A stretch of DNA of 64,000 nucleotides from an uncultured Rhodobacterales bacterium. Its GTDB lineage: Bacteria > Pseudomonadota > Alphaproteobacteria > Rhodobacterales > Rhodobacteraceae. Location of the stretch: contig CAIQOV010000049.1 in NCBI GenBank assembly GCA_903873585.1, positions 62,001-126,000 of the forward strand, given 5' to 3'. Of this stretch, positions 36,838 to 62,122 are shown piece by piece. The stretch's first letter is position 1; each line of letters begins with the position of its first letter. Below the pieces are notes generated by a model, which made no database searches, was not told the origin of the DNA, and saw only the letters and a list, made by a program, of their open reading frames with translations. The position numbers and the translations under genes are program-made.

Positions 36838-36858
36838 GGACAGATAGTGGCATTCTGC
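36838..36858. repeat. Direct repeat, left end of island (att-like)
   Basis: GGACAGATAGTGGCATTCTGC; 20/21 identical to 39999-40019. Confidence 0.85.
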
Positions 36859-36937: not shown

Positions 36938-37930
36938 ATGTCTTTACTTCGTGGCTCACACTGCTACCAAGGCTTCATTACTAGGGGAGCACCAGAAATG
37001 CCATTCCATCCCGCAACACTTAGTTTTCTCCCCTCAAAGGGCAAATACTACGCCAGTGTGACGATCCCCAAAGACCTACAAGCACAGTTTGGCAAAACCC
37101 AGATCAAGAGGTCTACAGGCACGGCAGACCGCAAAGAAGCACAGCGCCGCTTGCACTCGCTCGAACAGGAAATCTACAAGTTATTCAACCCCATTAAAGA
37201 CGAGGTGGAGTTCTTCGCTGCTGCATTGCAAGCGACATGGGATGAAGACTTTGTGACAGACGAAGAACTGAATGATCCCCAAAAGCTAAGGCAAGCCCTC
37301 GCCCACTTACTCAAAGTCGCTCAGACAGAATCGAAGCGTCCAAGATTGCCTTGGGATCAAGAAGACGGCGAAGCAGGGTGGCTTAAAGACTTTGCCACAG
37401 ACACTGCCGTTCCTGCTCTTACCAAGATGCACAATGACACCTTCGCCAACGGCGATAGACGTTACTGGGTTCCAGAGTACATTGACCACAAAAAGTCGAA
37501 GGAAGAAACAGCAGCTTTCTTGGCTACATTTTCGGTGTGGCTTGATGCTGGTGGTCTCCAAGAGCTGCGAGACTGGTTTGAACTGGTCGTCTGTGAAGAG
37601 CGTATGTTCAGGACTGCACCTGACACTGAGGCCAAGACTGAGATAACCACTAGGGACAAGACTGCGGACTATCAGGTTGAACTCCAAGACTTCTTAGAGC
37701 CAAGAAAAGGGGGATTTGTCTTCAGCGTTACTCAGATTCAGGCTGATAGGTTTAGGTATCTTGCTGAGAGAGATATTGCTGCGGTTCTTAGGGAAATGGG
37801 GTTCATTGAAAAGCGTAGACTGAGTTATGGGCGTGCCCGTTTGTGGGAACATACTGATCTGGTCGTCAGTAAGGACGAAAAGGCTCATATCTGGTCAAAA
37901 GAAGCTGAAAACAGTCGACTCAGGGGCTAG
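36938..37930 (+). CDS. Chimeric mobile-element protein: integrase-type N-terminus (DUF6538-like) with phage primase-like C-terminal region
   Basis: N-terminus KYYASVTIPKDLQAQFGKTQIKRSTGTADRKEAQRRL; C-terminal GDRRYWVPEYIDHKK...AGGLQELRDWFEL...TAPDTEAKTEI...ERDIAAVLREMGFIEKRRLSYGRARLWEH; no tyrosine recombinase catalytic motif seen. ORF also open from a TTG at 36914. Confidence 0.55.
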   Translation: MSLLRGSHCYQGFITRGAPEMPFHPATLSFLPSKGKYYASVTIPKDLQAQFGKTQIKRSTGTADRKEAQRRLHSLEQEIYKLFNPIKDEVEFFAAALQATWDEDFVTDEELNDPQKLRQALAHLLKVAQTESKRPRLPWDQEDGEAGWLKDFATDTAVPALTKMHNDTFANGDRRYWVPEYIDHKKSKEETAAFLATFSVWLDAGGLQELRDWFELVVCEERMFRTAPDTEAKTEITTRDKTADYQVELQDFLEPRKGGFVFSVTQIQADRFRYLAERDIAAVLREMGFIEKRRLSYGRARLWEHTDLVVSKDEKAHIWSKEAENSRLRG

Positions 37931-38081
37931 ACAGCTTTAGCCGTTAGAGTGGCAAAGCCACAAAAGTAGCAAGGGTGAGGGGGCTGGCACTACCCCCCCT
38001 AACCAAGTACTCATTATGTAAATTGGAGACTGCCGATCCACGGCCCTGATGGCATACCACCAAAAAGTACGGAGCCACTCG

Positions 38082-39185
38082 ATGAGATTTGTGCGCGTTC
38101 TCGCTTCTGCCGTCCTGACATTAACTGCGTCTGTGGCGGGCGCAGAGGGCCGTCTTGGTCTCGGGGAGTGGAGCGCATTCAAACCTTATCAGGTCACTGG
38201 AGTTCTATCGTCTAATCAGATTTTGGTGCTTCAAGCAGATGTCTATTTCACCTGCCAACTCGATGACCAAGGCACATTTATTGATCTTTCGCCGTGCCAG
38301 CCTATCCTGACGTCCGGTCAAAGGGACTATATCGCAGCACAGGAAGTGGCGGCAGAAAAGGCTTATCAAGACCGTTTGAAAGCTGAAGCGCAGCGCCTTA
38401 AGGATGAAGTGGCGAAAGCAGAAGAGAGAGCCAAAGCCATGTCCGAAATCCCACAAGTGAATGCGCTATCGATCAAGAATGCAATTATTTCAATTGGAAA
38501 AGATGATCGCTGTAGAATTACACTTAATGGCCCTACGATTAATGGAATCTTCTGGAGATTAAGTGTGGATGGCGCAAAACTTGATAAGAACCAAAATAAA
38601 TATGTGAAAGAACTGATTAATGATACATTTACTAAAATGATATGGTCCGGAGAGATTTCTTACTTAGCAGATGGCTCTGCAGGAAAAAAAATAACTGACT
38701 GCAAACTTCCTGACTCTAACCCGTCTACCATCGATACTTCTGAGGCAGATCAGGCAGCAATTGACGCGGCCATAGACGATGCAACGGCACCAGATTTGGT
38801 ACCTACCCCTACCATGACAGATCAGAAGAATGACGGCCCCGAAGTGACTAATGATACATCACTTGGCGTGGCACTTAACTCATATCAAGTTGATCATCTG
38901 CGCCAAGTCATCGGGCCAATGTGGAACATAGGCTCTTTGTCAACCGAAGCCAGTCGCGTGACCGTGACCATGCGCGTCCAGTTATCAAAGGATCAAAAGG
39001 TTCTGTCGGTCGAGATGGTCGAGTTCACCGGTGGTACGGCCGAAGCCGCCCAGCAAGCCTTTGAAGCGGCCAAGCGCGCTGTGATCCGAGGGGCTCTTAG
39101 GGGTCTAGGCTTGCCGCCCGATGGCTACGAAAGTTGGAAATCGTTTCTGATCACATTTGATACCAGCAAAGGTGAAATTCGGTAA
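38082..39185 (+). CDS. Secreted protein with TolA/TonB C-terminal-like domain
   Basis: Signal peptide MRFVRVLASAVLTLTASVAGA; C-terminus LRQVIGPMWNIGSLSTEASRVTVTMRVQLSKDQKV...AFEAAKRAVIRG...LPPDGYESWKSFLITFD. Confidence 0.6.
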   Translation: MRFVRVLASAVLTLTASVAGAEGRLGLGEWSAFKPYQVTGVLSSNQILVLQADVYFTCQLDDQGTFIDLSPCQPILTSGQRDYIAAQEVAAEKAYQDRLKAEAQRLKDEVAKAEERAKAMSEIPQVNALSIKNAIISIGKDDRCRITLNGPTINGIFWRLSVDGAKLDKNQNKYVKELINDTFTKMIWSGEISYLADGSAGKKITDCKLPDSNPSTIDTSEADQAAIDAAIDDATAPDLVPTPTMTDQKNDGPEVTNDTSLGVALNSYQVDHLRQVIGPMWNIGSLSTEASRVTVTMRVQLSKDQKVLSVEMVEFTGGTAEAAQQAFEAAKRAVIRGALRGLGLPPDGYESWKSFLITFDTSKGEIR

Positions 39186-39201: not shown

Positions 39202-39525
39202 CTAGGGTTTAGGTAATTTGGTTATGAATCCTGACTTAAGGTAAGCATCGAGTGTTTCAAATCCGTTCACGCTTTTGACAGGGTAATACCGTATTCCTGA
39301 AGTGTCTGAACAAGGATCAAGACGAAGATAAGCGGCTGTCCGTGATGGGCTGTCCATATTCGCCGTACTGATAGTGATTGCAACTTCACTCCCAGCAAGA
39401 ATTTCGGCAGTGAAGTCACTGGCCCAAGTATCCAGTTCCCTAAATGGGGCTGCCCCAGAAACCATCAAAAGTCCATCGCTTACGCACGTACTATACGCGC
39501 CAATTCGCATTTTGTCGCCAACCAT
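39202..39525 (-). CDS. Island hypothetical protein (possibly 3' part of a split gene)
   Basis: Open frame; coherent reading extends upstream to about 39570 (NVERENDYGTVFADLMVGDKMRIG) without a start. Confidence 0.45.
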   Translation of the reverse strand: MVGDKMRIGAYSTCVSDGLLMVSGAAPFRELDTWASDFTAEILAGSEVAITISTANMDSPSRTAAYLRLDPCSDTSGIRYYPVKSVNGFETLDAYLKSGFITKLPKP

Positions 39526-39758
39526 AAGATCAGCAAAAACTGTACCATAATCGTTCTCTCGTTCAACATTTCACTCTCAATCTTATGCTTTTTCCTGAAC
39601 TGCATCAAAATGTCCTTCACTATATGCTCGTTTACAGTCTCTTGGCTCTTCTGAAGCCTAAGAACATCCCGACCCATGATGTCGCTAGTCCTGTAAAAGT
39701 AACCGCCTAAGAAGGTCTTTTGCAGCCGAACTTGCTGCGTCTTTCTCTCAGTCGCCAT
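39480..39758 (-). CDS. Island hypothetical protein (possibly 5' part of a split gene)
   Basis: MATERKTQQVRLQKTFLGGYFYRTSDIMGRDVLRLQKSQETVNEHIVKDILMQFRKKHKIESE...; overlaps the next ORF in a different frame. Confidence 0.45.
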   Translation of the reverse strand: MATERKTQQVRLQKTFLGGYFYRTSDIMGRDVLRLQKSQETVNEHIVKDILMQFRKKHKIESEMLNERTIMVQFLLILWLATKCELARIVRA

Positions 39759-39998: not shown

Positions 39999-40019
39999 GG
40001 ACAGATAGTGGCAATCTGC
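39999..40019. repeat. Direct repeat, right end of island (att-like)
   Basis: GGACAGATAGTGGCAATCTGC. Confidence 0.85.
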
Positions 40020-61448: not shown

Positions 61449-62122
61449 TATTTTTCTCCGGCTACGCCATAAGCAGGGGCGGCGCGCGGGTCTAGCGCGC
61501 GGGTTTGGTAAGCGCTCATCTGGGGTTTGTAGATGCCCCAAGCGCGGGTGATATGGGCGATGGGGTCGCCCTCTTCCCAATCGCAGCGCAGTTCGGCCAA
61601 GGGCCACGGGTGTTGGCCAACGATCAGCAATCCCGCCGAATGCACGGGGCCTGCTTCGCCGCCCAAGGCAAGGGCGGCTTGCATCGCTGTTAGCAAACGG
61701 TCGCCCAGATGGCCTTTGGCCGCACTAAAGGCCGTGACCATGGCGGTGGGAATGCCCTTGTCGGCCAGCAAATTGCCACCAGCGGCCACACCGTCCCCTT
61801 CAGCAGCGCCCCAAATGCCCAGCGCATTTTGCCCCGACCAAGTGGCCGTGCGCCCTTGCGCATCAACGCACAAAAGCTGGCGGTATTCGGGAAACTTTTC
61901 CTGCGCCACGGCTTGTTTGACAGCTTCGGGTGCAGAATGCCCAGCGGCCAGCAGATCAAGCATGGCATCGCCCAAAGCGGGGTTGGTGATGTTCTGGCTG
62001 GCCGCCGCCCCCACCCCCGCCCGCGCATAAGCGCAGCGCGCCGCAACGGCTGGAGAGGAGGACGAAATGGCCATGCCGAACTGGCCGGTTTGCGCGCAGC
62101 GCGCGACGATCGAGAATGTCAT
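61448..62122 (-). CDS. DUF1028 (Ntn-hydrolase-like) protein
   Basis: MTFSIVARCAQTGQFGMAISSSSPAVAARCAYARAGVGAAASQNITNP; TAATG overlap with lysR. Confidence 0.88.
   Translation of the reverse strand: MTFSIVARCAQTGQFGMAISSSSPAVAARCAYARAGVGAAASQNITNPALGDAMLDLLAAGHSAPEAVKQAVAQEKFPEYRQLLCVDAQGRTATWSGQNALGIWGAAEGDGVAAGGNLLADKGIPTAMVTAFSAAKGHLGDRLLTAMQAALALGGEAGPVHSAGLLIVGQHPWPLAELRCDWEEGDPIAHITRAWGIYKPQMSAYQTRALDPRAAPAYGVAGEK

Follow-up and report, generated by a model that had tools for sequence, protein, structure and literature searches.

Why would a small integrated element carry a gene whose product appears to be exported and ends in a copy of domain III of TolA (TolA-III)? This question is raised by an intact open reading frame (ORF) of 367 codons at 38082-39185 on the forward strand of the 64,000-nucleotide (nt) stretch analysed here, hereafter the window (positions 62,001 to 126,000 of contig CAIQOV010000049.1 from an uncultured Rhodobacterales bacterium). 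The product is a secreted-type TolA-III fusion protein, in which a signal peptide and a four-cysteine domain precede the TolA part. An earlier reading of the same DNA (the original prediction) had regarded the gene as mobile-element cargo and suggested a TolA-like decoy or superinfection-exclusion factor. Our analysis favours a soluble periplasmic TolA-III competitor that would block Tol-dependent entry of phages or bacteriocins, a reading to which we assign a probability of roughly 0.42.

According to this proposal, a mobile element would have placed an exported domain with four cysteines ahead of the 3′ end of tolA, comprising the last part of the linker and domain III, from the host genus. 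We infer export of the product to the periplasm, where it would present the TolA-III docking surface in soluble form, detached from the TolQR motor, to which a membrane anchor ties TolA itself. There it could compete with the real TolA by occupying the N-terminus of TolB or the segments with which incoming phage adsorption proteins and bacteriocin translocation domains bind TolA, such that Tol-dependent import would stall and the host of the element would be protected.

The fusion protein ends in TolA domain III

Residues ~214-367 of the window protein align to the C-terminus of the host TolA with 67% identity over 158 residues including the linker and 73% over 112 residues. The host tolA gene lies on a different contig in the order tolR-tolA-tolB. 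An AlphaFold2 model gave predicted local distance difference test (pLDDT) values of about 90-97 for the TolA-III part, with the order alpha-beta-beta-alpha-beta. The five best Foldseek matches in PDB were all TolA-III structures (2x9a, 6s3w, 1lr0, 1tol and 1s62; probabilities 0.95-1.00, E 0.005-0.07), whereas a sequence-profile search of PDB with the window protein returned no match. The host alignment and the structure model, both named as checks in the original prediction, thus agree with the Foldseek search and the tree described below in identifying the C-terminus as TolA domain III.

In the TolA-III tree, whose short alignment leaves the deeper branching unsure, the window copy nested with five congeneric TolA rows (support 100/92), adjoining the TolA of congener G397 (96/80). 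The cysteines of the C-W-N and R-C motifs, present in most TolA domains of the family, are absent from the host, from close congeners and from the window copy. The glycine after AIIR and the methionine before WN, noted earlier as replacing conserved cysteines, do depart from the typical family TolA, but they are not specific to the mobile copy, as the host TolA differs likewise. We rejected the idea that these changes mark a function particular to the mobile copy, because the TolA of the host and close congeners also lacks both cysteines. The same loss of the C-W-N...R-C pair was seen across TolA proteins of the genus and close congeners (L002, L040-L049). Because the copy nests among TolA proteins of the genus and shares their cysteine loss, the TolA part is, judged from its sequence, derived from tolA of the host genus. 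The ratio of nonsynonymous to synonymous substitution rates (dN/dS) against congeneric tolA was 0.07-0.21, with dS near saturation in some pairs and with comparisons that also span time preceding the decay of the element, and points to purifying selection on the TolA-III fold.

Compared with TolA itself (TIGR02794), encoded in the tolQRAB cluster, the window protein keeps domain III plus the linker end (67-73% identity to the host) but lacks the N-terminal transmembrane anchor for TolQR with its conserved ISG.GH-type helix and carries a cleavable-type signal peptide instead. It retains only the last ~35 linker residues of the long Pro/Ala/Glu-rich domain II, and its gene lies outside the tol cluster.

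An AT-rich front domain foreign to the genus

The export signal claimed in the original prediction is present as a Sec-type signal peptide, judged by eye, with the cleavage point between MRFVRVLASAVLTLTASVAGA and EG. Recounting reproduced exactly the reported contrast between an AT-rich centre (33.3% and 21.7% GC) and a GC-rich 3′ part (63.3%). In 240-nt segments, the GC content within the ORF runs from 34 to 59%, an internal range of 0.246 that is the widest among the 26 long ORFs of the window (next 0.171; median 0.092); the AT-rich core at 38415-38723 has 37.9% GC. GC at third codon positions is 0.42 in the N-terminal and central part and 0.59 in the TolA part, the latter close to the host tolA (0.64).

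Neither a close relative of the first 212 residues among 397 family genomes nor a copy of this front domain elsewhere in the genus was found. A weak match pointed to a secreted protein of genome G227, whose gene lies next to nuoD, and to its relatives in other Rhodobacteraceae genomes. Reciprocal single-sequence matches between the front part and these relatives were weak; a hidden Markov model (HMM) of eleven nuoD-type proteins, built with the window protein excluded, gave the mature front part 34 bits, chiefly from its first half, whereas none of 500 shuffles exceeded 5.2. Four cysteines align across all rows compared, including the window front domain. The eight-row nuoD-type profile A2 missed the window gene in a genome-wide search of the genus, so the homology rests on the HMM, the cysteine alignment and the reciprocal matches; the relationship is real but distant. 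Like the window protein, the nuoD-linked protein has a signal peptide and four cysteines (~20-25% identity over the first 210 residues), but it stops after the four-cysteine domain, whereas the window protein continues into TolA-III; nor does the window gene, situated between hemH and a methyltransferase gene, share the nuo operon position of the G227 gene. The nuoD-adjoining protein and its relatives were seen at L004 and L093-L103, with the nuo context read in G227, and NCBIfam gave no match for one relative.

The idea of a gene assembled from a foreign core and a host-type domain is therefore well matched by a core foreign to the genus and a TolA part of the genus type. The protein as a whole matched no model in Pfam, PADLOC or NCBIfam, and gave chance-level matches only in PHROGs and in a viral fold library. 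Searched with its entire sequence against GTDB contigs, IMG/VR, phages and plasmids, it had no full-length relative.

Secreted TolA-III fusions recur on mobile elements

Secreted TolA-III proteins fall into two kinds, genes adjoining tolA and dispersed fusions. Genes for a signal peptide plus TolA-III lie directly beside tolA in ~13 of 397 family genomes and in the congeners G401 and G405, and may be the chromosomal counterpart of the mobile copies. Such pairs include L046/L055, L048/L056, L059/L079, L066/L080 and L067/L084, among others. Dispersed genes, in which another module joins the signal peptide and TolA-III, occur in G274, Thalassovita mediterranea (G077), Haematobacter missouriensis (G300), an Actibacterium metagenome-assembled genome (MAG; G318), G200 and one more MAG. 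Two prophage types (L106/L107 and L108) carry such fusions near portal, capsid and tape-measure genes, and four Phaeobacter plasmids carry them beside PDC-S19/DUF3644 and fertility-inhibition factor genes. On islands, the neighbours include homologues of ZorA/ZorB, HATPase/TOP6A, PDC-S48, ThsB-TIR, AIPR/MzaE and Mrr, some of these matches (e.g., ZorA-like) being weak.

The dispersed fusions (L106, L108, P0001, L087-L090) resemble the window protein in combining a signal peptide, another module and TolA-III on mobile or island DNA; their front modules differ from that of the window protein, and L106 has TolA-III first. Several share a few bases with the gene upstream, an operon-like overlap seen with YbjQ in L088 and a DEDDh nuclease in L090; an overlapping YbjQ or defence-like gene of this kind is lost or absent in the window element. 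Tree labels for secreted copies require 7 changes, at least four of them forced by well-supported branches, and the G274 and G300 fusions cluster with the TolA of their own hosts (99/96 and 99/86). These at least four forced changes indicate, as far as the tree can tell, that repeated captures from tolA supplied the TolA tip.

In L087 and L088, the gene downstream of a zinc-ribbon YbjQ gene, and overlapping it, encodes a secreted protein with TolA-III; in L145 and L147, the corresponding protein has another C-terminus. The L147 and G274 proteins are 64% identical over their first 149 residues and wholly different afterwards, and a stretch of L145 that reads as Ig-like from its sequence, matching no model, also occurs in plasmid and L108 TolA-III proteins. 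As front modules are common to proteins with differing C-termini, TolA-III looks like one among several interchangeable ends. The YbjQ pairs (L087 8173-9616, L088 8232-9715, L145 and L147) look like a modular two-gene unit. In T. mediterranea, a same-strand run (L088 391-9715) comprises YbjQ, the TolA-III fusion, a HATPase/TOP6A-like gene, two unassigned genes, and ZorA-like and ZorB-like genes, the last with a GmrSD_C end; by gene content it is a candidate defence operon. The fold of another family's front module gave weak, mixed matches to PsbP, RnlA and DcrB and was set aside.

Entry blocking and its alternatives

TolA-III is the docking domain for pIII-N1 of phage fd and for group A bacteriocins (PMC10424213, PMC8928145), and it binds the N-terminus of TolB (PMC8928145). 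Soluble pIII-N1 in the periplasm renders E. coli colicin A-resistant and lowers phage uptake by 4 logs (PMC10424213). Import can thus be blocked by soluble domains at the TolA-III interface, as proposed for the window protein, but pIII-N1 is the reverse partner: pIII mimics the invader and binds TolA, whereas the soluble piece in the window protein is the host side. Prophage-encoded superinfection-exclusion proteins of the P22 SieA type (PMC10883804) share with the window protein a proposed block of entry at the envelope and a mobile-element origin, here evident from att-like repeats, empty sites and relatives on prophages and plasmids. Unlike the window protein, for which exclusion is putative, SieA is not known as a receptor-domain copy. 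TolA-III and superinfection exclusion are already known, and the window protein is neither a TolA nor a proven exclusion factor. Secreted, element-borne and repeatedly captured TolA-III fusions were not described in the literature searched, a scope outside which most subscription journals fall, and searches on TolA decoys and YbjQ pairing gave nothing usable.

The decoy or exclusion role suggested in the original prediction has become more plausible because the architecture recurs on prophages, plasmids and islands with defence homologues, and because tolA 3′ ends were captured repeatedly. We also count in favour of entry blocking that the TolA-III copy appears to be under constraint although the integrase and primase of its element are broken. 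Several points weigh against it. We know of no TolA-using phage or bacteriocin for this host group, and literature searches for Tol-dependent phages or bacteriocins of roseobacters gave none. The association of the dispersed copies with defence genes is tentative, and none of the PADLOC models fits the window protein or any of seven relatives. The tolA-adjoining genes would suit a role in the Tol-Pal system equally, and the conserved yet varied front modules may mean that TolA-III is only a targeting part.

These last two points lead to the alternatives. Free TolA-III might compete for TolB or Pal and thereby alter outer-membrane stability, vesiculation, division or lysis, so that the benefit would lie in spread of the element or adaptation of the cell, with phage protection secondary. 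The genes beside tolA and the presence of such fusions in two prophage types speak for this modulation of Tol-Pal, but the dispersed copies adjoin homologues of defence genes rather than lysis or envelope genes, and their front modules vary though TolA-III alone would be enough; we consider it unlikely. Slightly less probable again is that TolA-III merely tethers the protein at the envelope through TolB or Pal, with the variable front module as the effector. The front modules shared with YbjQ-paired secreted proteins of other C-termini would fit such an adaptor, as would the retention of all four cysteines in the window front domain; however, relatives of that domain stand alone without TolA-III, and it is TolA-III that all copies share and that was captured repeatedly. 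We prefer entry blocking to either alternative, as well as to a dead remnant, considered with the element below.

A broader claim, which we hold more tentatively than the reading of the window protein itself, is that Rhodobacterales mobile elements repeatedly fuse the TolA-III tip of the host-lineage tolA to exported modules as receptor-mimic exclusion factors, some in operons with a zinc-ribbon YbjQ protein and with exchangeable C-termini. In that case, Tol-dependent entry would be a major, hitherto unseen battleground in alphaproteobacteria, with receptor mimicry serving exclusion, and Tol-dependent phages or bacteriocins not yet known would be predicted in Rhodobacterales. The shared architecture offers a handle for finding more such factors, most of which escape the models of Pfam, PHROGs, PADLOC and NCBIfam.

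The integrated element and its sibling

The description of the gene as mobile-element cargo is borne out by the flanking att-like repeats, by empty sites in two congeners and by a sibling element in G397. The 21-bp repeats enclose a 3.2-kb element between hemH and the methyltransferase gene (Table 1), and in congeners G402 and G409 the site is uninterrupted, with a single copy of the 21-bp core. At the same location, G397 has an 8.7-kb element encoding a DUF6538 tyrosine integrase, a serine recombinase, two zinc-ribbon YbjQ proteins, a VRR-NUC protein and a DUF5906/VapE-like primase. The two YbjQ genes and the VRR-NUC gene (L057 8935-11119) occupy the place of the window TolA-III gene, and a G397 gene that shares its upstream region and signal peptide with the window gene (start region, 85% over 94 bp) ends directly past the signal peptide. 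On the simplest reading of these sequences, the cargo gene was present in the common ancestor of both elements and lost in G397.

It is improbable that the ORF merely survives by chance from an inactivated element and has no current function: the truncated and inversion-fused integrase and primase, the failure to find a promoter-like site for the fusion gene and the loss in the sibling would fit such decay, but the ORF is intact with a ribosome-binding-site-like sequence, the low dN/dS of TolA-III (subject to the time span noted above) argues for constraint, and similar genes are intact elsewhere.

Table 1 Features of the fusion gene and its element, in window positions
Feature	Position	Strand	Remarks
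attL-like direct repeat, left end of element	36838-36858		GGACAGATAGTGGCATTCTGC; 20/21 match to 39999-40019
Chimeric ORF: DUF6538 tyrosine integrase (residues 1-154) and inverted DUF5906/VapE-like primase-helicase (residues 263-422)	36998-37930	+	
Ribosome-binding-site-like GGAG	38071-38074	+	From sequence, by eye; ATG at 38082 begins 7 nt later
Sec signal peptide, A-x-A-type cleavage, no lipobox	38082-38144	+	By eye; start region common to sibling element
AT-rich core, four-cysteine periplasmic-type domain with long helix	38145-38717	+	HMM and cysteine alignment
Linker captured along with the tolA 3′ end	38724-38834	+	DTSEADQAAIDAAIDDATAP; compare host DTSAADQAAIDAALADATAP
TolA domain III	38835-39182	+	Host TolA identity, AlphaFold2, Foldseek, tree
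Small ORF, probably a gene fragment	39202-39525	-	No Pfam or PHROGs match; no counterpart in sibling element
Primase-helicase N-terminal remnant (residues 1-72)	39543-39758	-	86% identity
attR-like direct repeat, right end of element	39999-40019		Pairs with left repeat, 20/21

The element primase had no match in IMG/VR and only remote VapE-like relatives among 198 genomes of the order. The two parts of the chimeric ORF are 97% and 94% identical to two separate, oppositely oriented genes of the G397 sibling, an assignment with which Pfam agrees; the primase part comes from the C-terminus, and the ORF is a remnant of the genes for replication and integration. By this comparison, the window element corresponds to a G397-type element in rearranged and decayed form, its chimeric ORF having arisen by inversion. 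The parents of the chimera are unrelated genes on opposite strands, with ~6.5 kb between them in the G397 sibling (L057).
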